Of a stretch of DNA of 64,000 nucleotides, positions 1-59,211 are shown in pieces (position 1 is the first letter of the stretch; every line of letters starts with the position of its first letter). This stretch comes from Tubiluchus corallicola. Lineage: Eukaryota > Priapulida > Priapulimorpha > Priapulimorphida > Tubiluchidae. Under the pieces are notes generated by a model. That model saw only the letters and a program-made list of their open reading frames with translations. It searched no databases and had not been told where the DNA came from. The stretch is from NCBI GenBank assembly GCA_030141605.1, contig JAQGDQ010000001.1:1646501-1710500 (forward strand), in the 5' to 3' direction. A program made the position numbers and the translations under genes.

Positions 1-571
1 GTTTGTTGTAGAGACATTAAACCACTTGTTTATAATACATACCTGCATATTCATGAGACTACTGCTGCCCATTATGTTTCTGACAAATTGAATTTTTGTA
101 ATATTGAAATTTAGGTTCAAAGTATTGCAGTTAAAATACTTTAGATTGAATTCTAAATTAATTTTGCGTAACAGTTTGTTTGTGTTAAAAGCTTAAAATG
201 ATGTAAAAGTGAAAATGCAAATCTACATGCGCTGAGAAGTTTTGATACCTAAGTTTTGTGAATTGATGAAGCCAATTTGTACATTCGCTCTAGACTCAAA
301 TTGAATTCACAGTCTTATAATTTTTTTATGATTGTTTCGAGTGACAAATTCCTTGTCATAAATATGTTTTTTTACGTAAAATCTTTTGATTGAGACGACT
401 ACTCGGAAAAAAATATGAGAATCTAATTATCTGTTGGGACTGTGATTAAATTTCGACAGGCGAATTTACCGAAGCTAGGGGTTTTAGTAAATCCAAAACC
501 TGCTAAAGGTTGTGAAAGAAAAATCTAAATTTGTTGTCTCCTTATTATATGGTTTGTCTGTCTGTTCACAG
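1..571. other. Probable intron sequence upstream of the first visible RAPGEF1 exon
   Basis: AT-rich sequence ending in a pyrimidine-containing acceptor (AG at 570-571). The exon at 572 begins with two bases that complete a codon, so an upstream RAPGEF1 exon must lie outside the window. No convincing coding stretch is visible here. Confidence 0.6.
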
Positions 572-3500
572 TTATGGCATACATGGAATTCTTCAGAGAT
601 TATGCTCATCCTAGCATAGATGATTTCTACAGAAGCTCCACGTATTCCCTCAGCGTATTCCAGGTGACTGCAACATTCATTATCTTCTTGCTATGCACAC
701 ATATTTCATACAAAAATTCTGTGCTTGTTCATCATGTGGCATTTATGTTTCTGGCTTGATATTCTTGTACCAATGACACCTAAGTAGTTTTGGTGATAAT
801 GTGCAATTTATATTGCAGAATATGTTTAATCCTCCATTGCAACAACCAGACTTGTTTCCTCTGAGAAATTTCAAAATGTCGAATTCTGATGACTCTGGAA
901 TGTTTTCATTGGATACTAGTCTTCCAGAAGATGAGATGCCTCCTGCTTTACCACCTAAACAAAAGGTCAGCAGTCTTTACCACCACTGAGTATTCATTCA
1001 GATTTTAAAATATTGTGTTGTCTACGACCTGCCCACTTAATGTCTTGATTGTTGTATTTGTGTTCTCAGTATGGATCCGTAAGCTGTATCTCTCTTTCTT
1101 CTACACTCTTTTTTAAATAATAAAATATGGTAATAAAATATGCACTATTTTCATTAATTCAAGCATTTTGAGGAACAAAAAATAAATGTTTCATTTTTTT
1201 ATTTGCGTAGAATCTAATCAAATTTATAAAACTTTCATGAAGTGTCAGGAATAAGATGTGAACAGAATGCTTTGTGCATTGAGAGGAGTTTTTTTGCATA
1301 GTTAAATAGGGCAACAATGCATAACGGTCCAGAATTGCAGATTTATCTTGTGTAGTAGCAGGCCATAAACCAGCTTGCCTGCAGGAATCCTCCACAAATA
1401 GCAGAAACCAGACTTATATGAAACATGTAAATACGTAACTCATATATTGCTAGTGGCTGTTAAGGTTTCGCTTTTAAATACATTGTGGTGTACATTGTTC
1501 TGCACCATTATGAATGTTATTTCATTAATAAGTAACTTCGGTTTGTTGTAGCAGAAAAAAGTAGTTTCTCTTTTATGTTACAGCATTTAGCCATTGTATC
1601 AACTGTTAACAACAAAAAACATGAAGCACCTAATAAAAACAGTGAGTTAAGTGAAAAACCTGTGAGCATGATTGACCCTAGTGCACCTGGTCGAGTAACA
1701 GAATGGTAAGCTGAGTGTACGCTCTACAACATATTATTGATGTTCTCTTATGTAATTAGCTGATAGCATAAAATTGCAATGGATTATTAGTAGTTTTATA
1801 TTTTTTTAATAATTTTCATAAATTATTAGTGATCAGTGTTGTTTACTTCTGTAGTTTTGAAAAGCTGTAGAAAATTTTTTAGTTCTGGCTTCCCACAACT
1901 TTTGTGGTACGTGTATTGGCTAGTGTAACAGTTGATTAATAAAATTTTTCACCTGTTTGACATTTTTTATTTTTTCAGTAATAGTGCCAAAGATACATCC
2001 ATTTCTTTAATGTCAAATGGTTGCAATGTGGAAGAAGATGAAGACCCACTTAATGATTTAGATGTCACTCGGCATTTAGTATTTAAGTGTGAGGTATATC
2101 AGAAACTACATTTTTATCTGTTAATTTGCCTCTGGCATTTAGCATAGAGGTTTACTTTTATATGTTTAATATGCTGAGATTAGTTTGTAAATTCCACAGC
2201 AGGGTTGAAGCATTCCCGCATTGAAGAGTTTTACTAGACTTTAATGGAGTCAACTGAGTGCTAAATTGTTTACGAAAATTCTGTCCCCGTGAAACAATAT
2301 TTTTGCCTAGTGATTTATTCCCTTTTGTTGAAGTACATCGAGTGATAATCGGGTGAATTATTTACAATGTGTATACTGTATCTATGTATCCATTTACGAT
2401 GTGTGTCCTCCATCCATTCACTATAGTGGCAAAGCTGCTATGTACATCGCAAGCCTGTCAACTATTCTTCAGTTAGTCATTTTTCTCTGCCTACGTTGCA
2501 AATGTCCCCCTCCCCAAGACAGTGTAGAACATGTCTTGTGAAATGAAATGTTAATATAAAAAGTGAGTATTAAATACATTCATATGTTTCTCTGTAGTTG
2601 TAGCATAAAATTCTATTTATTTTCTAGGACGAAGAAGGTCCAGATCTTCGAGGCGGAACACCCGATGCCCTTGTTGTCTATGCAGTTCGGACAGCAAAGA
2701 ATCAAAACGGTAAATTCATGAAAATAGTTACTACTTTGGGTTTATGTGCAATGCTAGTCAATTGGGCCTGTGGGTTTATGTTTATAATACTGTCTAGTTT
2801 ATGTATTAGAGGGTATTAGAGGTTTGAAAACATCTTACATGGTACTCTATGTAACATATGTGGCTTTACCTCATAAACTGTTTTAGGAATATATTTGCTG
2901 AAATATGAAGTTCAGTATGGGCCACCAAGGGGCAAATAATAATTTTTTGTGTCAGAGATTTTGAGACAGTTATTTCTACTTTATCATCTCTTCAACCAAA
3001 TGATAATAAATGTCACAGAGAAAAGTATTTGTTTTTGCTCTCTAGAGTACGGAGCGTATGTAGGCACAGTGGGTCTTGCCTATGCTGCGAAAGTGATAGT
3101 TTTGAAAGAAACACAGCTGAATGTGTGTCTGGAATGTGTGTTTACGTTTAGATGGCAAGTTTACAACATGATACCTTTGGATTTTAATTATTTCCATACA
3201 CTAACTTATAATTATTTCAATTGTGTCGTCGTAGTAAGAAGTTTTTTGGTGAAAAATTGCATGTGACATCTTCTGCATGTGAGAGATCACAGTCACCATA
3301 CTACAAAATTATGAATGTGTGGTGACGGATATATGTGACTGTGTGGTGCAAGGCTTACAGCAAAGGGTTAAAATGGTATTCAGCAGAATTTTATGTTTGT
3401 TTTTTATATTTATTTCATCATGGAAACCTAGTATGTTTTTTTGCATAATGAAAATGAGAGGAGATTTCAAAATAGCTTTTGTTTTATTTAAATTGGTGAT

Positions 3501-6500
3501 TCATATTCCACTACAGTGGGCATCGCTTAATAGACTCATTTTGGGATAGAAGAGTTTTGATATGATTCGAGTCATCGCTCTTCAGCTTAGTAAGCACTGA
3601 AAGGCTGTAAGAGCGTTAAGCGTTAGGTTTTTACGCTTATGCTCTATGATATATATTGCTTGTAAAGTCACATAGAATGCTGAGAGATTACTGTCACTGC
3701 AGTAGTGGCATAACAGCAACAGTGAACTGATGAAAAACAGCAAGAACATTGTAAGGAAACCGCTAGGTATGTGATTAAAAGTTTAGCTTTCATAAATTCT
3801 TGGGCAACAAGGTTAATGGAAGCAGACGAGTGGGTGACAGATTCAAAGCAAAAACGTTAGGCTAGTTTATTAGCCTGTCCAGAAACAAAATGACATAAAA
3901 GTAGCAAAATCTCCACAAATATCTTATTTTAAGTGCCTGAAACAAAAATATAGAGTCAATTATGCGAAGTTACATGAGTTAGTTGCATTCAGTTTTATAT
4001 ACATTTGAATATAAGTGTTTTTGAGTTAACTAAGTGATTCATTCTAGTAACCGTGAGTCTAATAAACAGCACCTATAGTATAAAAAAATGTTGCTAACCC
4101 AAAAATATTTGATTTCTTTCAGATTTTCTGTATCAGGAAGCATTCTTAATGACATATCGCACATTCATGGCTCCACGAGATCTCATTGACAAACTTCTAT
4201 ATCGTTATCGAAAATTCAGTCATTACAGTGATCTTTCACGAAAACGAGTTTCTAGAAACGCATTTTCTTTGCTAGTTCGTGTTGTTGATGAATTGTGGTA
4301 GGTTGGGAATGAGTATTCTATAATTAGTTCTTTTATCAGACTAAAAATTATAAAAAGCATGATCATGTTATTTTTAATGATCCCATAAATCATTTGGTAT
4401 CTCTGCTCCTTTTTTAATTATATGTAACTTCTATTTGGCCTGAGCTAACATATTTTTTAAGAATATCAATATGACTTCTCAAACTTAACTTCAACAACGT
4501 AACTTCTATTTTGTCTGAGCTAGCATATTTTTTAATCATGTAAATATAACTCGTCAAACTTAACTCCAACATTTTTGGTATACTGAATTTTACTTGTAAA
4601 TGTATATTATTAGCATAAATGACTTGAATGATGAATTGGTCAACATTCTCTTGGATTTGGTTTTTCAACTACTCTCTGACGGTGACATGTTGATGGGAAA
4701 AGCACTCAGAGGCAAAATCTTAGAAAAGTGTGAGGCGAAGCGAGCTTACCTTAGCCAAGAAAATCAACTGTTGCCTTCTATTGCCGTCTCATCAAGGTAT
4801 TTGTGATTTCATGTGCCTATGCTTGGTGTTATACCGTTGCTTGAAAGTATATTTTCTGCAGATCGTTTTGATAAACCGTTGCTGTACTATAAATCGTTGC
4901 TATACCCTGATAGTAAAAACAATGATTATATATATATTTGTATATATATATATATATATATATATCTTATATATATATCATATATATATATATGTATGTT
5001 ATTGCCGAGCCATCTTTATATTTTAAATTATTGTTTTTTACAGACCACTAATCCTGACTGACTTTAAAGCAGAACACCTAGCAGAACAAATGACATTATT
5101 AGATGCACGGTTGTTTGAAAAAATGGAGGTATTTTTTTGTGTCTGTTAGATTTGTTAATGAACTAAAAAACTAGTTAGTGGTGCATTGTCTTTCATGTGC
5201 AATAAGTTCTCTTTTTTGTCCTTGAATTTTTTTCTGATTTATTGTGAATTCTAATGCAAAGAATGTTGTTTTTGTATTTTACAGATTGCAGAAATGTTGA
5301 TTTGGTCAAGAGAACAGTCAGAAGAACAAAGTCCTAATTTAACGATGTTTACAGAGCATTTTAATAAAATGTCATACTGGTATGTGAGATGGCAAATTCA
5401 AATATACCTGGAATAAATTTTGGATATTGCTAGTTCAAATATACTTGCCATGATGAACTTTGCTAAACATTTTAATGAAAATTTTATGATTAGAAATATG
5501 CTGTTGTAATGGACCACATCAACATAATTTAAGGATTATAGAAATTTGTTTGCAAAGTTAGTTCCAGCGATTTTTGTCGGTATTAAATGCGTAAATAAGA
5601 AAACAATAAAGATATTGTTATTCTTCTACTCCTATTTTAAAAAAAACAAAAGTACTTTTTTGTCAGAAGTTTTTATTGTTTTTGGGTGTTTCATTGACTA
5701 ATGTTAACTTTTAGGGCTAGATCAAGAATACTTGAGCAGGATGATCCCCGAGATCGTGAGAGGATCATACATCGTTTTATAAAAATCATGAAGGTTTGAT
5801 TGTCATTTTTAATCGTAGATTTGCTGTATGCATAATGTAATAACATATTCTCAATCGCTTTACATTTTTCAATTCTATGATATTCTTTCTCAAGTTAACG
5901 TTAATTTGTTTTAAAATCCCTGGCAAGTTTATCGATTATTTTCAGCATCTAAGAAAACTGAACAACTTTAATTCCTACCTGGCATTGTTATCAGCATTAG
6001 ACTCGGCTCCCGTTCGCAGACTGGATTGGCCAAAACACATCAGCGAGACTTTGAAGGAATATTGTGAACTTATTGACAGTTCTGCCTCATTCAGAGCCTA
6101 TAGACTTGCGCTTGCTGAAGCAGAACCTCCATGCATACCTTATATGTAAGTGAGTTTTTATAACAATGATGCATCATTAGAAAATAATCCTACAGAAGAA
6201 GTACATGCTGAAAAATTTAGCTTTTTGTATGTCACAACTACAGCAGTTTTCTATTTCTTCTTGAGGCTGATTTGATTTGATAGAGATTTTATTCTTGCTT
6301 TACAAATATGCCTTACAAATGGCTTAACAAATTACTAAGCGAAGATGCTGTTTATCTCACATGAGTAATTTTGACTTTGCAGAGGACTAATCTTGCAAGA
6401 CTTGACATTTGTTCACATCGGCAATAACGATTTTTTGCCAGATGGAAAGGTCAACTTTGCTAAACGGTGGCAGCAGTTCAACATTTTAGATAACATGAGA

Positions 6501-7082
6501 AAGTTTCATGTATGGTAGGTGTATTTCTTTTTTCTTTTTTATGTTTAGCATTTTGTCTGGGGATAGCTATAGTATCATAGCCAATTAATTTTTTATAATG
6601 TCCTGAATAAATTCAAATCGGTTTGCTCAGTGTGGTGTTGTAGTATGTTGTGTTGTGTTACAGTATAGTGTGGGAGGAGCGATGTAGTGTGGTGTGGGGT
6701 GGGGTGGGTGGTATGGTATGGGTTGTTGTTGTGTTTATGCGCAAAATTCTTTTTTGCAGGTTTGGCTAGTCCTAATTAATATTGCTTAATTTAGTTTGTA
6801 ACTTCATACATTCTTATCATATAAAAGTCAATTTGTACTGCACATAATTGACTTGAAAATGGAGCTTAGATAATTATATTTGCAAAGACAAATCACGTTA
6901 TAACTTTGCTAACATCTGTCTTGTTTTCACTTTACAGTAACTACTACACAATTAAAAAGAATGAGCAAATACTGTCATTTTTTGCCAACTTTGATGAGTA
7001 TTTAGATGAAGAGACAATGTGGCAAATCTCGGAAAGCATTAAGCCACGAGGTGGACGTACAAAAGCCGATGGAAACGCTTGA
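572..7082 (+). CDS. RAPGEF1: RAPGEF1 (C3G) guanine nucleotide exchange factor, C-terminal 549 residues, 13 exons
   Basis: Exons read from splice sites and frame: 572-663, 819-965, 1584-1705, 1979-2093, 2628-2709, 4123-4297, 4614-4796, 5044-5128, 5285-5379, 5715-5793, 5946-6145, 6383-6514, 6938-7082 (TGA). All junctions are GT..AG and join in frame, giving 549 codons plus stop; the 5' part lies outside the window. The first exon encodes MAYMEFFRDYAHP, close to the MAYM..LEDY segment of vertebrate C3G. The second ends in PPALPPKQK, a CRK SH3-binding type motif. The REM (RasGEF_N) domain starts at DALVVYAVRTAKN and runs through exon 4614-4796; the CDC25 catalytic domain runs from PLILTDF to near the end, with LRKLNNFNSYLALLSAL, GLILQDLTFVHIGN and a KFH-like helix. 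In the known family it exchanges GDP for GTP on Rap1 and related Ras-like GTPases downstream of CRK adaptors. The identification is firm; the intron at 2710-4122 holds a MITE. Confidence 0.96.
3524..4078. mobile_element. TIR element (MITE) copy 1, in a RAPGEF1 intron
   Basis: A 555-bp segment bounded by inverted ends (CAGTGGGCATCGCTTAATAG at the left; the right end ends in CACCTATAG) and flanked on both sides by TA. Its body matches the 18098-18871 copy, sharing for example AAATTCTTGGG, GACGAG.GGGT, ACATAAAAGTAG, GTCAATTATGCG and TACATTTGAATA. It has no coding capacity. The TA target site and ends suggest a non-autonomous Tc1/mariner- or pogo-type element. It sits about 40 bp upstream of the exon at 4123. 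Confidence 0.75.
4424..4573. repeat. Two diverged 75-bp tandem units in a RAPGEF1 intron
   Basis: GTAACTTCTATTT begins at 4424 and again at 4499. Both units continue with TGAGCTA.CATATTTTTTAA and CAAACTTAACT.CAAC. The second copy has several substitutions, so the duplication is not recent. It lies between the exons ending at 4297 and starting at 4614. Confidence 0.75.
4926..4994. repeat. (TA)n microsatellite close to a RAPGEF1 splice acceptor
   Basis: An interrupted TA run of about 65 bases ends some 50 bases before the acceptor of exon 5044-5128. It creates spurious Ile/Tyr-rich reading frames on both strands. Confidence 0.9.
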
Positions 7083-13855: not shown

Positions 13856-14242
13856 ATATTTATACTGTATAAATATGTTGTACATGTAATGAGAAACAAC
13901 TACCCTTGTAATTAGTTAAGAAAAGCATCTCGAGAATAAAGACCCCACTAATCATCTTCATTTCCGAAGATTTGTCTCTGAACCTGTTCCCAGTCTGGTC
14001 TATTCTCGCCGTTATCAAATTCCCTGTGAAGAAGTACCACGATACCGGCCAACCACGAACTAGGATTAGAAATATCCAAAATGCAAACTATGTTCACATA
14101 CAAATTTAACATCTCAACACTCACGTACAAACACAATATAATTTTATGTACATACTTGTATTTAAGAAACTATAACTACCGTTACCATGCACGTAATAAT
14201 AAAATTTTTAACACTTGTTACGTAATTTATGTTTACTTAATC
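13856..14242. repeat. 387-bp tandem duplication, unit 1
   Basis: From ATATTTATACTGTATAAATA to ACTTAATC, this unit is repeated immediately at 14243-14629. I found no differences reading both units side by side. 387 is a multiple of three. The unit holds a possible - strand terminal exon. Confidence 0.95.
13948..14059 (-). CDS. Possible 3'-terminal exon of an unidentified gene, copy in duplication unit 1
   Basis: On the - strand a good acceptor (ATATTTCTAATCCTAG, with a branch-point-like CTAAT) precedes an open stretch ending in TAG at 13948-13950. It would encode SWLAGIVVLLHREFDNG, then ENRPDWEQVQRQIFGNEDD. The balanced composition and acidic tail look protein-like. I could not find the upstream exons or recognise the protein. 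It could also be the last exon of a pseudogene or chance. Confidence 0.35.
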
Positions 14243-14629
14243 ATATTTATACTGTATAAATATGTTGTACATGTAATGAGAAACAACTACCCTTGTAATT
14301 AGTTAAGAAAAGCATCTCGAGAATAAAGACCCCACTAATCATCTTCATTTCCGAAGATTTGTCTCTGAACCTGTTCCCAGTCTGGTCTATTCTCGCCGTT
14401 ATCAAATTCCCTGTGAAGAAGTACCACGATACCGGCCAACCACGAACTAGGATTAGAAATATCCAAAATGCAAACTATGTTCACATACAAATTTAACATC
14501 TCAACACTCACGTACAAACACAATATAATTTTATGTACATACTTGTATTTAAGAAACTATAACTACCGTTACCATGCACGTAATAATAAAATTTTTAACA
14601 CTTGTTACGTAATTTATGTTTACTTAATC
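14243..14629. repeat. 387-bp tandem duplication, unit 2
   Basis: Direct, apparently perfect copy of 13856-14242. The right border is where CTTAATC is followed by TAACACAGCTAG instead of ATATTTATAC. Confidence 0.95.
14335..14446 (-). CDS. Possible 3'-terminal exon of an unidentified gene, copy in duplication unit 2
   Basis: Identical to the copy at 13948-14059, including its acceptor and stop. If the gene is real this is the copy nearest to its upstream exons, and a transcript could use either copy with the same protein result. No upstream exon was identified between 14630 and 17472. Confidence 0.35.
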
Positions 14630-17472: not shown

Positions 17473-19162
17473 TCATTTAAATGGACATGAGTAATAGTCT
17501 TCCTCTAGTTCATAAAGAAAGGCAGCCATATCATCTCTAATTGCCATCAATTTATTATCACAGTCTTCCATGGTATCACGGTACAAGTTTGTGTTATGTA
17601 CAATGGCTTCGTTAATAGCAGGAAAGTCATTCAAGATAAGATACTGTTTCAGATCTGACACAAGTTTCATAAGAGATTCTCCAGCACGTACAATATTCGC
17701 TGCTCTAACAGACATCTCGTGTAACTCTTGCTCATTCATAGCAGCCCTAGATACTTGAGTGTGTTCCTCTGTCTGAACAAAATGAAGTAAGGATATCAAT
17801 ATTAGCTCATTGAGAAACGTGAAATAACCCATTTATAAATTATGCATCATTTTAAAAGAGAAAGAGAAATTATTATTATTATTAAAATAACTCTACTTTA
17901 TTCAAAAAATACAGAGTACAATAAAACAAGTTCTCTATTTCTAAGGGTAGAGCTATCCACTTTATATTTAGGAGAGATTATTTTTTAAGCCTTAGAATAT
18001 ATAATGTAAATAACAGAAGAAAAAATACTAACTTACAGACCAAAATTGATTTCAGTTATAAAATGAATTCTACATTTTTTGCTCTTGTTTAAAGGTACAG
18101 TAGATGCCGCTTAATAGACTCACATTGGGACGGAAGTGTTTTGACCTTTCCTATTATCTGAACCTGTTAACCCATGGGTGTAATATTACTGGTATAGAAG
18201 TATGAGTCAGCAGCTTAGTATGCACTGTAAAGGTTTTCAATAAATTTTAGAAATGAAGTAATGCCTAATTCCTTTGTGCAGCTATATGTGAATTAGCCAT
18301 AAATTAAAAAGTATACTTTTCTAAATCACTCTGTCCATCAAACTGTTCATCTACAAAAATTCCTTCAAACTTCTTAATTCTATGCTCTCATTTGCTGTAT
18401 GATATTTACCCTTGTAAGTCACAAGGAATACTGGCTGACTACTGTATCTGCATCTTTGACTGTTAACTGATTAAGCGTGATTTGCAACGAGAGCTTCAAA
18501 AGGAAACCGCTAAACAAGATTAAATGTTTAACTTCCAAAAATTCTTGGGTAACGAGGTTAATTGAAGTGGACGAGCGGGTAACAGATTCAACATATTAGC
18601 GTATTAGCACATCATAAACAAACACGCTTACAAACAAAACGGTACCTAACATGATTGTTTCTACATGTATTATAGTGCACAAAAGCGAAGTAAAGAAGAC
18701 ATAAAAGTAGGAAAGGCTCTTTGGGCACGTACAAATATCCTACTTTAAGTACCTGAAGGAAAAATATTGTGTCAATTATGCGGAGTTATTTGAGTCAATT
18801 ACCGACAGTTTTTATGTACATTTGAATAGAAGTGATTTGTACCTGTTGAGTCTATTAAGCGGTGCCTACTGTATAAGAAATAAACCCAAGTTTTACTCGA
18901 GCCATTACATTATGCAATACAGTCAAACCTCTTTATGCTGCCTACCTTGGGAATGCAAAAAAGTTGGTTTTAAGCAAGTTTGGCATTGTAAAGAGGTACA
19001 TGCCTAGTTGCAGAAACACTTTATTGACAATGATCTTACCTTGGCTAACATGATTATTTCATTAAAGTTATCAAGTATGGATCTGACATCATCCTTTAAC
19101 CGCTTCTGGTAAGACTTTAGTAAGGCATCCTTATTTTGTGTTTGGTTTCGCTGTGCTGCCAT
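17473..19162 (-). CDS. MED22: MED22 (SURF5), Mediator head-module subunit, complete, two exons
   Basis: Exon 1 is 19040-19162, exon 2 is 17473-17772; both junctions are GT..AG and phase 0, giving 140 residues. It starts [20 protein letters not shown] and continues [16 protein letters not shown], which matches the MED22 N-terminus. Exon 2 carries the family hallmark [19 protein letters not shown] followed by [11 protein letters not shown]. It ends [12 protein letters not shown], so it equals the short (140-aa) human isoform and lacks the vertebrate C-terminal tail. The protein is a small helical subunit of the Mediator head module, which bridges activators and RNA polymerase II in the nucleus. 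A - strand AATAAA lies about 210 bases after the stop (17256-17261). The intron holds a complete MITE and part of another. The gene is divergent to RPL7A. Confidence 0.96.
18098..18871. mobile_element. TIR element (MITE) copy 2, in the MED22 intron
   Basis: A 774-bp element between CAGTAGATGCCGCTTAATAG and its near-perfect inverted end (CTATTAAGCGGTGCCTACTG), flanked by TA on both sides. Its body resembles the 3524-4078 copy but is longer. No transposase frame is visible. The ends and TA target suggest a non-autonomous Tc1/mariner- or pogo-type family. Confidence 0.85.
18920..18993. mobile_element. Remnant of a TIR element starting CAGTCAAACCTCTTTAT
   Basis: CAGTCAAACCTCTTTATGCTG resembles pogo/Tigger-type ends and the ends of the element at 26118-26305. 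The right side (ATTGTAAAGAGGTACATG) is a partial inverse of it. The copy is truncated and has no coding potential. Confidence 0.5.
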
Positions 19163-19689
19163 GCTAAAATATCAAGACAAACCAGAATCTTATGAAATAA
19201 TAAATGGTGTTAACAGGTTAATTAAAATTTAATATCACAATCACATCCTGCAAAATCAATATCATAAACATAAAAAAATCACAAAGTACAAAGACGTATC
19301 ACCACCTGACACCTGTTGCTGCTAGTCAAGAAAAAATTATTTACAGTACTGCAAAGGAATGATTTCAAGTTGTAGGTAGATCTTTCTAGTTTAATTTTTC
19401 ACATTTCAAGCAGCTGGTTCTAGTGCTTGTCTTTTGAAGGCGCCTGCTATTGCGAATTTAGAAGCGCCTTTACTGTGCCCTCATTTGTCAAAGTCACACT
19501 CATAAAATGCCAGATCTGTTGACCCTTGGATTACAAGAAAAGTATATCAGCATATTATCCAAAAGGAATAAGTGTTCAAACATAAGTATGGAGATCCATT
19601 GTGTGCTGTGTAAACTTAGAGTAAAAGTAGTCAACGAAATAGAGTGCTATTTAATAGTGAAGTTGGTATAACCCCTAGAAAACATGTTG

Positions 19690-20700
19690 ATGACATATAG
19701 GGACTAGGTGATGAAAATAACATTAGTCAAGTTGTGTCAACCTGTAGAAGACTTAAAAAAGATGACATTTAGTAAATCAAAATCACAATATATGACTGTG
19801 AACAAAGTTAAAGAAACATGCAGAACGGAAAAAAATGAATTGTTTGTAAGAAGTGGTTTTCTAGAAGAAACTTGTCAATATAAATATTTAGGAGACTATG
19901 TTACAGAAAAGGGAGATCATTCTTTGAGCAAAAGTAAAAGAGGAGAAAAAGTAGCATATATGAAGAGAGAATTGATGTAATGAAGTAATGAAAAAGAAGT
20001 TGGAGCGTATGAGAATAAGAATTCTTTTGTTTGAATCAGTAGTGCTACCGTCATTAATACATAATACTGAAGCTTGGAGCAGTGTAAATGAAGCACAGTG
20101 GGATGAAATGGAAAGATGGCAGGAAGAAATGACATGTACAATCTTAAACCAAATGAGTTCTACAAGTTATTGGGACACTATCATGATATTAAGCTTTTGG
20201 CCCATAAGACAAATAAATTCTAAGCAATTAATGTTATTGGGAATGTTGTGCACCTGCGAGGAAGAAAAAGGTATTTTTAGCAATGATGGAAAAGGAAATT
20301 CCTGGAAGTTGGACTGGAAACATAAATGAAACAGCAGAATTGTATGAAATAGATATAAATGGGAGAGATTAAAAGTAACTATATGTAAATATCTGGAGTA
20401 CGCTGGTAAAGAAAAGTGTCAGGAAATGAAAAAAACTGAGATTTATGGAAAAGGTTACAGGAAAGTGGAATAATCCAGTGGATTATGAAATTAAGTGTAA
20501 CCAAAAAAAAACAGTCTATGAAATAACAGAGTGGAAACTGAATATGATTAAAGTGAAAACAAATTTCAAAAGTAAGTTTAAGAATGATCTGAAATGTCCT
20601 TTGTGTAAAATTCATAATGATACAACGGAACACTTACTAATGTGTGAGAAAGCTGGGTGAAGAAGATATGGAGGTTGATTTAAAAACATTCGAAACAGGA
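19690..20700 (+). pseudogene. Degraded non-LTR retrotransposon (LINE) fragment between MED22 and RPL7A
   Basis: Three broken frames read like the C-terminal half of a LINE reverse transcriptase. 19708-19980 has KYLGDYVTEKGDHS, like the YKYLG.....G motif after the RT core. 19988-20329 has VVLPSLIHNTEAW, like the usual VLP.LLYG.E.W. 20445-20660 has a CPLCKIHNDTTEHLLMC zinc-knuckle-like motif. Stops and frame changes separate them and the catalytic core is missing, so it is inactive. It lies in the space that should hold the promoters of the two flanking divergent genes. Confidence 0.8.
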
Positions 20701-21180
20701 AAATTAGTGATGATAAATACCAGGATAAGTAATGAATGTTAGATAGAAAATGGGTTTAGAAATTTAATATGTCTACACTAGGTTGTGGGTAAAGCGTGTT
20801 AAATGTAGAATTTTTGGCTCGCTATTAAAACTTTCACTTTTCTGCTATCCCTTTAGCCTACTAACGTATTCGTAGTAGAGAAGTCAGTGTGAACCACCAT
20901 ACTAGCATTTCACGAGACTGACTAGAGTCGCCCATCATCAAGCTAGTAAAAATTCAATGTTTGGTAAGTAAATGCACCTAAATAATAAATATCTTCGTAA
21001 ATGAATAAAATAGTTTGAAAAATAAAATGTAGTTATTTCAAGTTTAGCTAGAAATTTTTTAAACACGATAAATTTTCTGCCTTAACAGTTTCGGACAGTA
21101 CAGTACAGTTACTACTGTAGCACATGTTGCGCGATATCTCGCGGTTTACGAGAAGTCGAGTAAGTTGCGTGGCCTATCGG

Positions 21181-21204
21181 CCTTTTTTGGAACCAATAAT
21201 CATG
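21181..21204 (+). promoter_or_regulatory. Probable RPL7A start region: pyrimidine (TOP-like) tract and start codon
   Basis: CCTTTTTT at 21181-21188 looks like the 5'-terminal pyrimidine tract found at transcription starts of ribosomal protein genes. It is followed after 13 bases by ATG at 21202-21204. A TCTCGCG motif (GATATCTCGCGG) lies about 50 bases upstream. An intron directly after the ATG would fit a common layout in this gene class. The donor (GTGATT) is weak, so this assignment is tentative. Confidence 0.5.
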
Positions 21205-24200
21205 GTGATTAGTTTTCTTTATATTTTCATGATGAAATCTCTTTTAGTTTGAGGCATCTTATTTCTTTTTTTCGAAATTATATTGTGTTGGCTTTTGCCA
21301 AATATGCGTTATTTGGTGCAGTTGTTTAGTTATAAGAAATAGTGTCTAATTTAAAGTGAAATTTTGATATTTTTTATTGTGTTGGTGTTTGTGATATATG
21401 CGTTATTTGGTACTGTTGTTTAATTATAAGAAATACCGTCTAGTATTATGTTAATTTTTTCGTGTTTTTCAGGTGAAAGGCAAGAAAGGAAAAAAGAAAG
21501 TTGCAGCGCCTCCACTCATTGTGAAGAAGGCTGAACCTAAAAAAGTGGTTAACCCTCTTTTTGAAAAGAGACCAAGGAATTTTGGAATTGGTAATTTGAA
21601 TACGTTGGAACTTATTTACTTTTGCTTACTGTTTATATGGTATTTATCCTTTGTGCTCCTCATTAAGCATGCTTTTGTAGTACTAACAGAGAAGCAGAGT
21701 ATGTGTCTTCATAAAATCTTGTGAATTATGTGGCAAGCCAAAGTAAAAATTATTAATTTTAGTTTTGTTGTGTATGCTGCTCTAAAGTTATTTGATGACA
21801 TAATTAACCTTTAGTGCTCTGTTGATTTTTTGCACAGTACAGTCTTGCAAACTGGCAAACAGGTATCCAACGGCACGTTCTACTTTATAGCATGTTAATG
21901 ATTGTTGCAATCTAGGACATTAACACATATAAATGTATAAACTTTTAAAATAAGCTAGTTACCTATCTCATCACATTTGGATGCATATACATCATATATA
22001 CATCAGGCCCCCACTCTTGCATAACATGTTATTTAAAAATATGACCAACTGGTACGTGCAAGAGAGAGAGAGAGGAGGGGGAAAGAATCATTGTCATCAA
22101 AGTCCTCATTAAAAAAATTGTTATCATCACATTTATTTAAAGGTGAAACGTAGAACCTAAACAGGGGAAGTTGTTTTTTTATATTCACTTTATAATGTTA
22201 TTTTAGACAGTAGTGGTCCTTTTAATCCTTATTATCCACATAAGAATTTTAATAAATTTTAATTTTAAATAATAATAATAATACAAATGTTTGCTTTCAT
22301 ATGGTCATTTGGACTGAAATAAAAAGGGTATAGTTATCTTAATTCGTTATCATCGTTGTCATCATCACCATCATCATCCTTGTTACTACCATGTGTTATT
22401 TTCATTGACATTACTGTTCACAAAGTTGGGCGCAATAATTATGAAGTGGAATGACAACAGTTATTTACATATCATATTTACATTATTTCTAAAATATCGA
22501 TCAACCGCGATATTCCGATTATTAATAACAACAGTATCCTTATCCGGGAGTTGTCGTAAAGTTAGGCATGCGGTTGAGACAAAATCTTGTTTAATGAATC
22601 CCATCATAAATCACTAAGTGTGTGCACAATTAAGTGCACACGACTAAATGTGTCTTTAGTTGTCACAAATTCTACTTAACTTTCCTAGTCGTGTGGAAAC
22701 TAGGGAGCAGCCAGGAAGATAAGATAGAACGCACTAGAAAAAATACTTCAACCCGCCTAAACCCCACTTAACACAAGGAAACAAGTTTAAGTGCAGTACA
22801 TGAATCCGGGTGCAGTATTGCATATGAAAATTTTTTATTAGCTTTAATTAATTAACTTTTTGTTGTTAAACAGTGTAACTCATCCCAAATTTGTTTAGTT
22901 AAATGGAGTTATAGTACAAGTATTCTAACCTTTCTAAACTTTAGTTTTCTTCTTAGTTTAATTTCTGTAAAGTGTGTGTAAGGGCATTCTGGCTTGGACA
23001 AAAGCATTCCAGCTATTAATAAAATGAAATCTTGGTAATTCATAAATCAATAATTTGCACTAGTTATTCCCTTTAACCCCTTTACTTGTTGTACAACAAA
23101 AAAAGTAGCCTTAATAGTATTTCTAAATTATACATAAATATTTATCGTGTTTCTTTTTTGTAGGCCAAGATATACAACCTAAGCGTAACTTACGCAGGTT
23201 TGTCAAATGGCCTCGCTACGTGAGATTGCAAAGGCAACGACAAGTTCTGTATCAGCGACTGAAGGTACCACCTCCAATTCACCAGTTTACACAAACATTG
23301 GACAAACAAACAGGTATCAACATCGATAGTCTTATTTTGCGCATAGTGTTGAAAATCAGTTTTATCTGCATGTTTTGTCAACTTTTAGAATTGATATAGG
23401 AACTGATACCATTAGCTTGGTGTATAAAATCAGTCAGGGACATCTGCTGTGTAGAGAAAGTCAATACACCTTGTTGTAAATTTTCCATGTTGAATAATGC
23501 TTTCCAATGCTTTGTTTTGACCACTCACATATTCTTTATTTTTGAACATGAAAAAAATGTTACACATTTGTAATTTATAATATTTGTATTTAGTTTTGTG
23601 TTGTGTTGGAGTGTGGTGTAATAATTTTCTTTAGAATTAGCAATGTAGAATTATGACGGTAATGATGAATCTATCACTAGTTTTTTGTGTTGTATATTAT
23701 ATCTCTGAATTGCAGATGCTTTGCTGTTATTTTTGCACTATGTATTATGCCACCGCTTTTAGTAACGTTGGTTTGCTAGTGCCTGGTGATAATAGTTGCT
23801 GCAGTATTTAGAAGAAAACAAGATGATGTCTTATATCTTACCTCATTTTGAAGTACAGTAAAAAGTATATATTTTAACACCTGCAATAATGCCAATGTGT
23901 TTTCGATAATTAAATAATACGTTAAAAACTTAATTAACAGTCGACAAGCCTAGTTGGTGATGTTAGAAACATTCCATGAGCATGTTTCACGTGTTTGCGA
24001 AAGCTATAATTGAAGTATAGTGCTGCTGTACAACATTCAGTATGATATACAAAAAGTCCGCAAATTTGAAGTTTTAAGAATTTAAATTTCAAGTTTACCA
24101 CTGGGCTAACACATAAGCTCTCATATGTGTGTATTACATTACATTTGAATTGAGAGGTACAGAGCCTGGTTTTTGTGCAAAGTATTTCCGAGTTGCACAT

Positions 24201-27200
24201 GGCTAGTGCTAATCTAACTAGGGAATGGTGAAATGCATGTAACAGCTAGAGTTAGCTGTCCAAACGCGAGATTAGATTTCTGCAGATAATAGTTTGTTTG
24301 AGTAAGCCATTCTTAAAAAAACAATATGTTCACTTTCAATATTTTGTAGATTATTTGGAGTTATAGCTTAAGATTGGTCCAGTTTGCCAAATCATGTGTA
24401 ACGTTTAAAAAGCAATTCATCGTTCTTTTCTTTTGTTTTTAGATCTTCTGCATTGGCTGAATAATATCACAGGCATCTTTTTTAAATTAGTGTTTTTAAT
24501 TGTTTGCCCCAATGTAGTCAAGTTAAACTTTGTTAACATGTTAATAGATATTTAGTTTATTAATTTAATTGCAATTCTTTTACTTAATTCCTTTATTAAT
24601 AGTTGGCCAATTATTCAAGTTGATGGATAAATACAAGCCGGAAACAAAACAGGCAAAAAAAGCTCGACTGACAGCTCGTGCAGAAGAACGCGCCAAAGGG
24701 AAAGATGACGCTCCAACGAAACGTGCTCCTGTTATAAGATCCGGTGTGAATACAATAACCTCACTGGTGGAGCAGAAGAAAGCACAGTTGGTTGTAATTG
24801 CACATGATGTTGATCCTATAGAGGTAAAAATTCTGTAGCATTGTCAAATTAATTGATGTGTTGGTGAAGAGAAATTCTGTGTAGTTGCAGTGATGCTTGA
24901 CTCGAATTTCTTCATCTGAAGTGAAATTGAAGAAAAATCAATATGTAGACACTGAGCAGCTACTTTAATATTAGTGTAAGTGTATTGGTATCATACTAGT
25001 AAATATTAAATTTTGCTGGGGATTTAATCTCATATATTTCTTCAATGGATACAATTTGCTCCATTCTGTAGAATAACAAGTTCATATATCCGGTTACAAA
25101 TGTTATTGTACCAAAAGATTATGCAGTTACTAAGTGTGGATTGCCCATGTGCATCAAAGCTTCACCTGACCATTCTCACATGAGTGTAGGGCAAGCTATC
25201 CCTGTCACAATAAAAATACTTTCACACCTGGTAGCATGTAAGACTTTTGTGCAGCAAATGAGGCCGACAGTAGAAATACTTTTATTTCTGGTTAATCGCC
25301 CAGGTAAATTTTTTTATCGCACAACCAGCCGGGAATTTTTTTGATTTTCTGTACGTTCATATACTTGATGCAGTCATATAAAATCGTATTTTTTAGTTTA
25401 GAATCTAAAACGCAACAATTATAACATCATTCTTTTGGAGATGCAGGCGCAGCCATTTTTTATTATGGCTAACTCTCGGCGAGGGTTGCCGTTTTGTATG
25501 ACGCTCATCGCATGGAAGCTAATGAGTATCAAATTTTCCACCAAATCTGTGTGGTAACGAGTAGTGTTGCCACTTGCACCATAGTTATCAGAACATACGT
25601 TAATGATACAAAAGAGACTATACAATAATAGATAATTATATGATAATTTAGTAATGCGAAACAAAAAACTAAAAAACAAAGCGTGAAAAAATGTGCACTG
25701 GAAAAATTTAAAACATTACTGCTAGCCAGTGTGAAATAAACTTTGATTTCAACAGATTTGAAATATTCCACAATCTAGCTTTAAACATTCACGAACCTTT
25801 AAAAAACCCTCCCTCCGTATTAACGTCTTTTGAGCTCACGAGGTAAAACAAATTTTTTTCTGGCCGGCCTCAGCAAAATTGTAATTATGAACCCAAGTTG
25901 CAAAGATATTTCAGTTATATTTTTGATGTATAACACCATAACGTGTAGGGGTAGAGAACAATCTGCTTGCTACTTGCTTGGCCATGCTTTATTAGTCCTT
26001 AAATGTGCCTCGCATGAAGTAGCATCTGCCAGGTCATCTATCATGGTACTACAAAGCTGCACACTCACTGTAAGTGGTTTGATGACCTATCATCAAGTGA
26101 AAAATTATATGAAGCTACAGTCAAACATTGTTATAATGTACCCCTTTATAATGTTACATTTGCATAATGCCCAAATTTTTGGCAACACAAAATATCTATA
26201 TTTCCATAGACATGTATGTATATTAAAGCACCTCATGGTGCCATACTCGCTTAATGTCAGCTTTTTCTGGAGTCTCAAAGTGGACTATGTAAAGAGGTTT
26301 AACTGTTTACATATTAAACTTGCACAAATGACAGTTTATGCAGTTACTTTGGCCATTCCAATATTATATTGTGCTACACGATGTATGGATTTGTCATTTT
26401 CTTGTCATTTGAGAAGGGTACTTCATACATTTTTGTTGCAGCTATTGTATTTGCACATAATTGTTTGAATTTTTCACTTAATTGAAAGTTATTTTACTGT
26501 TTTCCAGATTGTGCTGCATTTACCAACATTATGCAGGAAGATGGGTGTTCCTTACTGTATTGTTAAAGGCAAAGCGAGGCTTGGACGTGTTGTACGTAGG
26601 AAAACAGCTACCTGCCTTGCTTTTGCAAATACAAATCCGTAAGTTTTCACAAACTGGTCTGCAAGCTTCAATGGATATTAATACTGAAATTAGCAATATA
26701 CTAGTCCAGGTTGGGGGTCTTTAATCACAGATTATATTTTTATTATTAAGTCTGGTTAGTTTTCTTTTGTCTACTGTGCACATGCAGTATGTTTTTCGGT
26801 CTGCGCATTTTTCGTCCTAGTGCATGCCTTGGATTGTATTGATTAATTTATAGTTTTCCCAATAAACTGTAAATTTTTGTGATTAAAGGTTTTCATCATC
26901 TTTTCCCAAAGCAACTTTGTGCAGTAAACTAGTATGGGAAACCTTGTCTTGCTGGAGGACAGTCATGCCATGATGGGATTAAATGATTTTATGGAATTAA
27001 ATGAGCTTATCTATAATTGGTCATGGAGTGTAACTAGAAGAGGGGACACTATGCACTGAGGTTGCAGGGCTGAGTTTGTTGTTCTGAAGAGCATTAAATA
27101 TTTGTCCACATAGTGATTCAGTTTTTTAGTCTGCATGATAAAGGGTCCACACTGCTGTAATGCTTCTTTAGGAATTCATAATAGCATTCTACATGGTTTT

Positions 27201-28602
27201 GTTTGGTCCCTCTTATTTATATAAAAAAATGCATATAAGATTGACACACACATGTACTCAGTATCTGCCACATAACTATATAATGTGCAATCTCTTTTTT
27301 AGGGGTAACAGCTACTTGCTGCTGCTAATTGTGGCAATGCGGAAATGTGGTTTTTGTAAATATCAAAAACTGTGTTGTGTGTGTTGCGCAGTTTAAGGCT
27401 TTTACAGTATTTGTTTATTATTCTTTATTTAAACAATCGTTTTATTCAGATATAAAAATAGAACCTATTCAATGGGCTTTCTTTCGTATTTACTTGTCGC
27501 ATTCGTCTTGTGTAGGGCGTGAAGTAGTGCACTAGCCTATGTACTGCTGTTGCGCTAAAGCACTTAGGCAAAATTTGCGGAAAACCAGCGAGGTACATAG
27601 GCTCTTGGGCAACCCAAGTACCGCATTGCTGATTTTACTCAGTGTATTAACTTTGCATGGGGAATTTTGACAAATTTTTAAAAATCCAATGAAAGTTAGT
27701 TCATTTTACAAAAAAATATACTTTTTCACTGAGTTGCCATCAGCATAGCATTGTGAAAACTTGCTTGACCAGGTGTTTAACTCTTGCCAGCATGCAGTAG
27801 GCTCTACGTTGGTATCGTTTTGCGGTGGCTTTTCTAACTCTTCACTAAACAAGAAGTTGTTTATTAACAAAGCAGCTGATTTAGTAGTTATAGCGCCGTT
27901 CAAGAAAGAAGAGGACAAAAATGCCGTACCTTAATGAAATGTTGAAATTGCCTAAAAGTCAGCTTATTTCACCTCAAAAAATTTAATCTCAGAAATAAAT
28001 TTAATATTGCTCCTCTGGCTTGCTCAGAAATAATGATTATTTTATTTTATCAAATGTATAATTTATATTAAATTGATTGTTCAAAGTATATTGGCATTTA
28101 AATTATTATTATTAAATAAAAACAAGGACAATTAATAGATGCTCTCACTGGCACTAAAGTAAACTTGGCTCAATTCTTGATCAGTTTCAGGTGCGCTACC
28201 TAGGCCAGCCCATGTAGAATGCAAGCCCATGTACTACACTCTGCTTCGCTCTGGACATCTTGGCTGTCAATTTGTACTTAAGGAGCCGTGTGTTAAAATA
28301 TATTATTTTAGCCAATAGGTGACAGTAAACTCCTAAAAATGAACAGTGTAATATTTGACATTTTTATATTATCTTAAAGCTTCTTATTAGGTAGGACAAA
28401 ATAGTTTTATTGTTTGTATAATTACAGAGAGGATCGAAGTGCACTGAGCAAGTTGGTAGAAGCTGTGAAGACGAACTATAATGAGCGTTACGACGAGATC
28501 CGAAGACATTGGGGAGGTGGACAACTTGGTACCAAATCTCTTGCTCGAATAGCCAAGCTTGAGAAAGCTAAAGCCAGAGAGCTTGCACAGAAAGTGGGCT
28601 AA
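21202..28602 (+). CDS. RPL7A: RPL7A (eL8, SURF3), large-subunit ribosomal protein, six exons
   Basis: Exons: 21202-21204 (ATG only, inferred), 21473-21590, 23164-23313, 24603-24823, 26508-26638, 28428-28602 (TAA). Phases agree throughout; the model gives 265 residues against 266 in human. Matches to the family include [30 protein letters not shown], the eL8/L7Ae RNA-binding core [20 protein letters not shown] with [23 protein letters not shown], and [10 protein letters not shown] near the end. The product is a component of the 60S subunit. The first exon is the only uncertain part: an alternative is ATGTTTG before a perfect GTAAGT at about 20966, which would need an acceptor seven bases further in. 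An AATAAA poly(A) signal lies at 28624-28629. Introns contain a MITE and other repeats. MED22 lies upstream in divergent orientation. Confidence 0.95.
25600..25755. repeat. Dispersed repeat, copy in an RPL7A intron
   Basis: Shares AAAGAGACTATAC.ATAAT, AACAAAAAAC, GTGAAAAA.TGTGCACTG and TTTGATTTCA-like blocks in the same order with 28978-29105. No ends or coding capacity were recognised. Confidence 0.6.
26118..26305. mobile_element. Short TIR element (MITE) in an RPL7A intron, 188 bp
   Basis: The left end is CAGTCAAACATTGTTATAATG; the right end reads CAGTTAAACCTCTTTACATAG on the opposite strand. Both resemble pogo/Tigger-type termini of the form CAGT..AACCTCTATATAA. It ends about 200 bases before exon 26508 and lies inside a long frame (25830-26468) that is not a gene. 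Confidence 0.65.
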
Positions 28603-34193: not shown

Positions 34194-37100
34194 TTAAAGT
34201 GGTTTAATATTAAACATAGACTCGGGTGATAGCTGGTCACTGACTGGACTGTACTTCTTTGTCACAGTGACATTCGAACGAAGATGTTCAATAGCTGCAT
34301 TTTTGTTCAGAGAAATAAAATGGCTTGTTGGACTTCGTCGATTGACGGCAAAAGCCACATTACTGGCTTTAATAACATGCACTATTATTCCTTTACAGTC
34401 CCTGCACACAGTCAACAATGGACCATCAAACAGGTTACGTCGTACAGCTTTTGTTACAGTTTTTGATCTTTTCATCATCATTTGTGACTTTTCGGCTTGA
34501 GTCAGTGCTGGGGAGTTATGATTTTGGTCTCGCTCTAGTTTTTTACCAACACGAGAGCGAGCCCGACGACTACTTGTAGGGCTGTTTGGTGCTGACCAGG
34601 CATTGTTTTGGTTGATAGTGTAGCGTGTTGCACTTTTAGTGTTTTTGACCGGAGAGTCATCACCTGATGATCCAGATGAGCTACTGCTCATTTCAGGTCC
34701 TAAAGCAAACACCGGAATGTTCTCAAAGTGCTCTGTGGGGACGCGCATCTTTTTGGAACACTTCTTACAAATGTTTCGTTTGCACAATTTACATTCATTT
34801 TTCCACTCACCAAGCAAACTGAATTTGACCTTTCTGCATATAAAACAAATTTTTCCTTTAGAAACTTCCTCATAAAGTTTTCTATCATTAACAATGTTCT
34901 CCAGTTGAGCTTTAGTTAAGACTGTCCTTATGTGTGAAATTTCATCCATTGTTAAGGAAAGGCTGTCTAAGTTTGGTTTCATGTCGGGTGGCAAAGGTCG
35001 AAGGTTATCTTCCTCTGAGGAAATAGACAAAGAACTAATGCTGCTTCTTGGAGAACTACTTGGTGATTCACACACAGTTATACTATGGCGTCGTTCCGGT
35101 GTTCTTGCTGGAGGGCATGTAGCCAAATCATGAGCTACTGTTACATGCCAACCAGGCCCTACAGGAGATTTATCATCTGTCAGTAGAGGAACACTGTCTT
35201 CATCATCCGAATCATCGTGTACCAAAGCCGATATATCTGCTTTAATCAACCGCCGACGCGTAAGTGGAGTATTGTCACCTTCTTCCAATTTTGTCCTGGA
35301 AGTTTCAACTGTTAGTGTGGTCGATGGTGACACAGGCCTCAGGTGATGGTCATGCTGGCGAATTGATCTCATCAATGAATCGTACGGTGATGAAGGTTCT
35401 GATGGGGGAGGAGGTAAGCTTCTTCGAGCAGCTGGTACTAAAGGTGGCCGAGATCTGATAAACTCCAAAATAAGTGAATGTGCATCTTTAGTGACATTAG
35501 CAGGGAGGACAGTATTTGCCTGCACCTGCTTGAGTTTATATCTTCGAGAGCGAATATCATCCATCAACATTTCATACGGAGTTAGTGAGTACTCTATCGG
35601 ATTATGATCCGTGGTAACTTTCTTTAATTTCACTCCCTCTCGGAGTTGTCGCATTACTTGGCACCATAAGCGTGCCCAGTCTGTAAATGATATTTCTTCC
35701 AGTGTAGAGTCTTCTAAATTCGAATCTGTACTCAACTGTCTTAAAGCTTGTTTGCCGCTCGATATTTTATTAAGAAAGGTAGAAAGCTCTAGACTTTCAG
35801 CAACTAATGCCCGGCACACGGCTTTGTAATGCGTACCAGCTTCCTCTTTTGTCGGACTTGCAATATGAGTTGCGCAGGACCTAACCACATCATCAAGAGT
35901 AAATGTAGGATGGTCACTATCACTGTCAGAAGCGTCATGTCCAATGCCTTCGTCATCCTGCCAGCTTTTCTCTCCAAGTGTTTCTTCACTGGCTGTCATA
36001 CATGTTATTAGCTCCTCCAATGGTTGACTTAACGTCCTCTCTTCATTGCCATCTAGCCCGTAATCTAGTGCATTATATATTATAGCACCAAGTGAATTCA
36101 CTATCGCGTGCTGTGTGCAAATAGCAGCCAATGAGTCCCCATGAACAGTTTCTACACAACCATCTTGCGAAATCTTTACACTTGAAAGTCCACTTAGGCT
36201 GCAGCATTTCTCAGGATCTTGGTTCCATGAATTCTTCAGGTACTGTGCCACTTGGTAACATACAGCCCAGGCTTGTTCTTCATTTATAGGTGAGGTAAAA
36301 GCATCCAGTATCTTATCCAAACTAACATAGCCCATGGAGTCCAACTGACAACGCTTTTGCTCCTGAACTGATGGCTCCCCAGCCATAGTGGACCTATGGA
36401 CATTAAACAAATCAGCATCAGTTACATTTGACACTTGTGCATATGAAAAAGTTACAATTCAACTTAGCAAAAAACATTTTACAAACAAGTTTTAGTAAAC
36501 GGAAGTTATGAAATTTAATGCTACAGAGGTAGGTTGACATGGCATGCCAGTGAAAGCAACAGGTGGTCCTTTAAGTATACACATGTATCAAAACATTATG
36601 CCAAATGTCACATTAAACTTTTTTCAAGTAATTAACATCAGACAATTCTGACAAATTAGCAGGCTGCATACCAATTTACTGACACACAATTATTCTTAGA
36701 CAAGTGCTATTGCACTTTAATTAAACTTTGGCAGTAAGGCAGAGTTTTCCTTTTTAACATAGCTCACTCAAATGCCTCATACAGTGTGACGTTTTCGATA
36801 TAAAACTTGTTTTTTTAATGCAATATGAAGCAGGTAGACCAAAGTCTATTACGGATGTATAAATACTTCAATACTACTGTCACCATCATCTAAATTTACA
36901 TAATAAGAGAGTAATAAATCACTATAATTCACCAAATTTAACAATAAAATACATGTAATACTGGAAAAGCAATGCATATAAGAAACACAATTGTAGCCTC
37001 AGAGATCTTGGTGTATGAATCATTTACCTCCATAAGGAATCAACAAAATTTGATTCATCACAGGCTTGGGTCAAATTTCATTTAAAAAAATGAAAAGAAG

Positions 37101-57952: not shown

Positions 57953-59211
57953 TTAACATTGAATCGAACTTTTCTTGGATATTTTATACATTAATCTATC
58001 CTCGCCCATGGTAGAATAAAGATACGACTTTATCGGTTTCAGGCGACTAAAGGCTCGTTCAGCAACTGCGCTAGTTACTGGTAAGGTCAGAAAAATGTGG
58101 TACAATGTCAACAGGTTAGAATAAATGGAACACATGTTATTGGCAATCATGAATTTAAGGACGTTATCGATGGTCAGTTTCTGAACACTTGACATTGCCT
58201 TACTCCTAGTGCTCATTATTTCTTTGTACATGTCTTTGAATGAAAGAAATTCTTGAACGATTTCAGTTTGACCATCGATGACAACTGAGTACGTGCCTGC
58301 TACAAATTCTAATTTGTTCTAATGCTAATTTCGAATGATAATTCCGTGCACTGTCAAAATGATTGGGATCTAAAACACTAAATCTGGAAGCCACATTTTT
58401 GAAATCCTCAAATCTGACAAGCCTGTGCTATTTATAAGAAAATCTAAGGACACTAAGTAGGTTTCAATCATTAAATCAAATACTTCTTCATCCTTTGCAG
58501 TTTCATCATGGAATCTTTTTCTTTTACATTGTCTCCGCTCCCTGTATTCCATACTAATATCACATTTCTGAGCCAATTCAGTTGCTTCACTTTCAATTTG
58601 TTTGAAATGAGATTCATACTCATTTCGCATATCTTTCTTATTTTTTTCAAAATCTGAATCAACTGAGAAGCATATAGAAGATCTAGACTATTTTTCTGTA
58701 AATATGTGTCTAGCATGTTACTCCAAAATATTAAAACAACTAAGAATTCAAAGTATTTAGTATTTCCAGTATACCCTTTGCCTCAGCCACAGCTCATAAA
58801 TAGTTTTTTATCTCACCATTCAGAATTCTTTGCGAGCAATTACTAGTGCTGATAAGTTCTACAATACTGCCTCTCTTTCTGGATATCCATGTAGTATCAC
58901 AAAGTTTCTTTACAGTCAGTGCAAAAGATGTGATCTGATTGTGTTCTTCTTCTTTTAGTACAGAAAGACGAGTCAGAAAAATTAAAAAGTCTTTCTAAAG
59001 TTCCAAAAAACAACTTGGTTTGACTATTGGAGCTTACTACATCAATTAGAAGCATTTCAACAATCTAAGTAATACAATTATTGAGCATTTTTCGTTTTGA
59101 GGCAAGATATTTTACCCGACAAATAAATTATTGTTGAAAAGGCTCTAATTTTGAATAATGTGCTCAAGGGGAGCAGTTGCTCCCCCTGCTCCTCTATTAG
59201 TTATGCCACTG
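57953..59211 (-). pseudogene. hAT-family transposase relic with one recognisable terminus
   Basis: 57953-58231 encodes the hAT C-terminal dimerisation region (LTLPVTSAVAERAFSRLKPI then KSYLYSTMGEDRL). Further 5', 58370-58716 has broken frames with RKRFHDETAKDEEVFDLMIE, as in ZMYM/DUF4371-type hAT transposases. The 5' end is probably 59211, where the - strand reads CAGTGGCATAACTAATAGAG, a typical hAT terminus. The other terminus and the target duplication were not found. Frameshifts and stops make it inactive. Confidence 0.8.

Follow-up and report, generated by a model that had tools for sequence, protein, structure and literature searches.

An adjacent and divergent pair of intact genes, MED22 (minus strand) and RPL7A (plus strand), was identified in the window, the whole stretch of 64,000 nucleotides analysed here, and the extent originally predicted for it, 17473-28602, proved exact to the base. 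The pair was almost certainly inherited. Among the members of the vertebrate surfeit cluster, these two genes are the only ones that occur together in this invertebrate genome, and they do so in a region resembling human 9q33-q34. We consider it highly probable that the divergent pair is ancestral, having been inherited both here and in vertebrates, and the same confidence is placed in the following account of the surrounding block, of the inserted LINE and of slow rearrangement. In the bilaterian ancestor, the pair would have belonged to a larger block corresponding to human 9q33-q34, the start codons being probably about 650 bp apart, a spacing normal for a two-way promoter. Insertion of a LINE-like copy between MED22 and RPL7A would have followed, so that each gene is now probably driven by its own proximal promoter, and the adjacency would have been kept mainly through slow rearrangement of the region rather than through a compact shared promoter.

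MED22 is a subunit of Mediator and the product of RPL7A is ribosomal protein eL8. The coding exons of the two genes are the following.

17473..17772, minus strand: MED22 coding exon 2 with stop codon (Pfam, spliced model, splice sites, PDB match to MED22)
19040..19162, minus strand: MED22 coding exon 1 (spliced model, PDB match, splice-site scoring)
21202..21204, plus strand: RPL7A coding exon 1, ATG alone (spliced model)
21473..21590, plus strand: RPL7A coding exon 2 (spliced model, eL8 alignment, genome search)
23164..23313, plus strand: RPL7A coding exon 3 (spliced model, eL8 alignment, genome search)
24603..24823, plus strand: RPL7A coding exon 4 (spliced model, eL8 alignment, genome search)
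26508..26638, plus strand: RPL7A coding exon 5 (spliced model, eL8 alignment, genome search)
28428..28602, plus strand: RPL7A coding exon 6 with stop codon (spliced model, eL8 alignment, genome search)

MED22 is the sole match to Med22 (PF06179) in the 343.5-Mb assembly (84.1 bits, Pfam). Its spliced product of 140 amino acids aligns with residues 1-137 of human MED22 (E 2.3e-50, PDB search); the reading frame runs from a start codon at 19160-19162 through a strong donor at the end of exon 1 (exon AAG, intron GTAAGA) to a TGA stop codon at 17473-17475. RPL7A consists of six coding exons on the plus strand (21202-28602) with GT/AG junctions throughout, and encodes 265 amino acids that align along their whole length with eL8 of vertebrates (E 3e-132). 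No second copy was found in the genome search, the other match being a weak L7Ae-type relative located elsewhere (40% identical). Within RPL7A intron 1, a 94-bp unit present in 2.2 copies makes up most of positions 21267-21469.

The start codons of MED22 and RPL7A are separated by 2,039 bp, of which 1,388 bp are LINE-like, and no further gene was recognised in this interval. The spacer can be divided into three parts.

19163..19510, minus strand: putative 5' region of MED22 (splice-site scoring)
19511..20898 (1,388 bp), plus strand: LINE-like repeat, 5'-truncated and decayed (repeat matches, copy alignments, end alignments)
20899..21201, plus strand: RPL7A upstream region with a predicted start site (sequence)

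The repeat has about 57 related matches genome-wide, its own copy included, and is 76-82% identical to five aligned copies over 1.1-1.5 kb. Its left end at 19511 is common to four of these five, and the additional sequence that other copies share upstream of this position indicates that the intergenic copy has lost its 5' end, a truncation typical of LINE insertions. Remnants of reverse-transcriptase-like reading frames at 19708-20657 resemble, by eye, the C-terminal part of a LINE-encoded protein, and a Pfam search of the open frames of the repeat returned nothing significant (weak zf-RVT match, E 0.066); the LINE-like label is based on the repeat copies, the 5' truncation and the open frames as judged by eye. 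Removal of the repeat from the spacer leaves 651 bp, which only estimates the ancestral spacing since the end alignments displayed no recognisable target-site duplication at the repeat ends. Two-way promoter pairs are defined by transcription starts less than 1 kb apart, and 651 bp is ordinary for such a promoter, so one was probably lengthened or divided by the insertion. On the RPL7A side, a TOP-like pyrimidine tract, CCTTTTTT, is present at 21181-21188 before the ATG, with the motif TCTCGCG...CGAGA about 40 bp further upstream. The position of the tract matches the expected mRNA start of a ribosomal protein gene and the start site is predicted accordingly. On the MED22 side, splice-site scoring suggests a candidate non-coding first exon, with an acceptor-like ATTTTAG located one base before the ATG, together with two weak donors (19312 and 19305).

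These features bear directly on the role of shared promoter control, which had been put forward as a possible reason for the survival of the pair. This explanation found no support, as a copy of such length now separates the two genes, and a compact shared promoter may no longer be needed in this animal given the inserted LINE. A tentative proposal, possible without being the expected outcome, is that a two-way promoter older than the bilaterian radiation was split by the LINE in this lineage, with the genes still adjacent and intact. If true, the split pair would be a natural experiment on the role of shared control in holding ancient pairs together. The long-term adjacency of genes is debated between shared regulation and a simple lack of breakage, and the pair allows a clean test between these options, since in one lineage the distance between the starts has been increased by a mobile element. 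Alternatively, the two-way promoter could still be active, with a non-coding first exon of MED22 lying within 300 bp of the RPL7A start, the LINE residing inside a 5' intron of MED22 and the genes being kept together by shared control. We regard this as unlikely. The acceptor-like site makes an upstream non-coding exon plausible, the unique part of the spacer is short, and two-way promoters are overrepresented in housekeeping genes, 372 being inferred as ancestral in chordates, but the majority of the putatively ancestral ones in this set were lost in vertebrates (PMC6292497). Moreover, 20899-21180 is devoid of a good donor on the MED22 strand: on a simple scale where the real MED22 donor scores 10.4, the candidates at 19305-19312 reach 6.8 and 5.4 and the best in 20899-21180 only 4.3, although real RPL7A donors go down to 3.6. 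The location of the better donors beside MED22 rather than beside RPL7A thus weakly favours separate promoters today. The pair, in being a deeply conserved head-to-head housekeeping pair, is comparable to the ancestral two-way-promoter and microsyntenic pairs of metazoans (Irimia et al. 2012, cited in PMC6292497). It differs from them and from the amphioxus set of 372 in that its spacing has been stretched by a mobile element and in that two-way transcription is here putative.

The surfeit gene cluster is defined as six genes, Surf1 to Surf6. Mouse Surf5 is transcribed divergently from rpL7A (Garson et al. 1995, as cited in PMC9929512), and human MED22, RPL7A, SNORD24 and SNORD36 are listed together near ABO at 9q34 (PMC8016878). 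The likeness to this locus claimed in the original prediction stands for the adjacent and divergent arrangement of Surf5 (MED22) and Surf3 (RPL7A), and extends to the presence of SNORD36 within RPL7A introns and to a region shared with RXRA, RAPGEF1, HSPA5 and STXBP1. It does not stand for the remainder of the cluster: in contrast to mouse and human, SURF1, SURF2, SURF4 and SURF6 are not nearby or tightly linked to the pair, and the start codons are set apart by the LINE-like insertion. SURF1 was located on contig C1183, SURF2 on C663, SURF4 at two loci on C177 and C1744, and SURF6 on C811. With these four genes on other contigs, the genome possesses the MED22-RPL7A pair and not the cluster. 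The presence of all four on separate contigs would also be expected if the entire cluster was ancestral and became dispersed here save for MED22 and RPL7A, a reading to which we assign a rather low probability. No two of the four share a contig, which excludes tight clustering with the pair in this genome; several of the contigs may be short, leaving room for distant linkage, and a later assembly of the cluster in vertebrates fits the same data.

The snoRNA component of the locus was found in the fourth intron of RPL7A.

24885..24960, plus strand: SNORD36 (U36) box C/D snoRNA in RPL7A intron 4 (Rfam RF00049)

This copy lies on the sense strand of RPL7A and scores 37.9 bits against a gathering threshold of 30. 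The D' guide of U36 targets 28S A3703 and its D guide 18S A668. This guide-to-site assignment was obtained in part from PMC2653536. In the intron-4 copy, the D' guide GAATTTCTTCA conserves 11 of the 12 letters of the Rfam guide ahead of CTGA, and no other site in 244 kb, on either strand, reaches 11 letters or more in this position. The D guide, directed at 18S A668, is lost in this copy. As judged from its sequence, this U36-type snoRNA would guide 28S rRNA methylation; a search of the assembly for a 28S rRNA motif, intended for the pairing and tolerating up to two mismatches, gave no match. A second SNORD36 was observed at G000:C639:75345-75420 on the minus strand (49.2 bits), in an apparent intron of a gene other than RPL7A. 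It mirrors the RPL7A copy, its 18S guide being complete (13 of 13 letters) and its 28S guide missing, and these opposite losses indicate that each guide is carried by a different SNORD36 locus. Such a division is comparable to that of human U36A and U36C, which split the guides, and differs from chicken, where a single RNA carries both; U36 is found in introns 3 and 4 of chicken RPL7A (PMC2653536). Unlike at the mouse and human locus, SNORD24 gave no match in RPL7A or in the whole genome, a null result that does not prove its absence.

The link between the two genes was predicted to predate vertebrates provided that the source is an invertebrate, for which the neighbouring RAPGEF1 and SPIRE were expected to be informative.

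1..7080, plus strand: RAPGEF1 (C3G), 3' part, left neighbour (Pfam PF00618 and PF00617; translated motifs)
34197..36458, minus strand: SPIRE, right neighbour, one open frame of 754 codons (Pfam KIND PF16474, weak FYVE)

Both names are correct according to the domains. RAPGEF1 displays RasGEF_N (PF00618) at 4113-4298, RasGEF (PF00617) at 5844-6146 and a Crk-binding proline motif near 900 (LPPLPPKQR and MPPALPPKQK in the translations), and SPIRE matches KIND (PF16474) with an E of 1.7e-53 and FYVE weakly. The uninterrupted SPIRE frame, with its KIND and FYVE-like domains, is possibly a largely intron-free gene. Taken alone, the two neighbours are no proof of an invertebrate source, and the origin was established by other means. 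The search of the assembly returned a single let-7 locus above the Rfam threshold (62.5 bits), which makes the genome bilaterian, and RPL7A is about 78% identical to vertebrate eL8 by our own count from the alignment, a value far below the vertebrate level, so that the source is not a vertebrate. The ligand-binding domain of RXR, about 50 kb away, was best matched by 1xiu, which we take to be the RXR of the snail Biomphalaria, by a small margin over human RXR-alpha (286 versus 281 bits). If 1xiu is indeed a snail protein, the source is likely to be a spiralian, for example a mollusc, although so narrow a difference in score weakens this indication. Mitochondrial COX1, meant for reading the genetic code, was absent from the assembly. 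With an invertebrate bilaterian source, the link is older than vertebrates if inherited, and inheritance is much the most probable explanation in view of the conserved neighbours. A head-to-head adjacency of two named genes among about 20,000 is estimated to arise by chance about once in 40,000.

The neighbourhood was covered over 244 kb of the contig, where the gene order from left to right is STXBP1, RXR, SUGT1, RAPGEF1, MED22, RPL7A, SPIRE, two copies of HSPA5, COIL, a CDC7-like kinase assigned from a weak match, and PPWD1. When MED22 and RPL7A are counted once, five of the ten units are orthologues of human 9q33-q34 genes (STXBP1, RXR, RAPGEF1, MED22 with RPL7A, and HSPA5). Human RAPGEF1 maps to 9q34. 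Human STXBP1 lies at 9q33.3-q34.11 (PMC4587785), RXRA at 9q34.2 (PMC11521896) and HSPA5 at 9q33.3 (PMC11852679). Assuming that the band contains about 1.5% of human genes, the chance of five units in ten is about 2 in ten million, a rough estimate because the test was set after seeing the genes and because RXR has three human copies. The other half of the units (SUGT1, SPIRE, COIL, CDC7 and PPWD1) lies off human 9q, so the block is mixed. We take human CDC7 to be on chromosome 1 and PPWD1 on chromosome 5. These two locations would also fit the pattern of amphioxus, in which a single scaffold corresponds to human chromosomes 1, 5, 9 and 19 (PMC6292497). The ancestral proto-MHC organisation is described as retained in human 9q34 (Vienne et al. 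2003, as cited in PMC1188056), and 9q33-q34 as the proto-MHC block that has changed least; Danchin and Pontarotti (2004), also cited in PMC1188056, is a further reference for this conserved region, and the placozoan proto-MHC was addressed by Suurvali et al. (2014), as cited in PMC5002281. The proto-MHC region is comparable to the present one in that RXR and HSPA5 occur alongside other 9q33-q34 genes in one 244-kb stretch, and differs in that these are here intermixed with genes of other human chromosomes. That the adjacency results from a local rearrangement or an assembly error, independently of the vertebrate order, is scarcely credible: the assembly is in 2,344 contigs, but both genes are complete and single copy on a contig of 3.19 Mb, N bases are entirely absent from the 80 kb of flanks examined, several more human 9q33-q34 genes lie at most 120 kb away and SNORD36 sits in its expected host gene, the block and the snoRNA in place both arguing against a local rearrangement.

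No paper describing the MED22-RPL7A pair in an invertebrate was found within a partial coverage of the literature, and such a pair is probably readable from public annotations.

A number of additional observations were made in the region. HSPA5 (BiP) forms a tandem pair at G000:C1874:1714857-1729428, the first copy ending in KQEL and the second in HDEL; the PDB search for this gene used the C-terminal exon alone. Next to the STXBP1 exons, G000:C1874:1564539-1568587 contains long open frames whose sequence resembles Gag and retroelements. In the window itself, a 387-bp unit is present at 13856-14629 as two tandem copies matching at 100%, which reflects either duplication in the very recent past or an artefact of assembly. 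Minisatellites with units of 33 bp (46384-46542) and 16-17 bp (48331-48753) contain long open frames on both strands. A remnant of a hAT transposase (Dimer_Tnp_hAT, E 1e-7) is located at 57956-58994 and, by eye, a LINE-like open frame remnant at 62759-63106.
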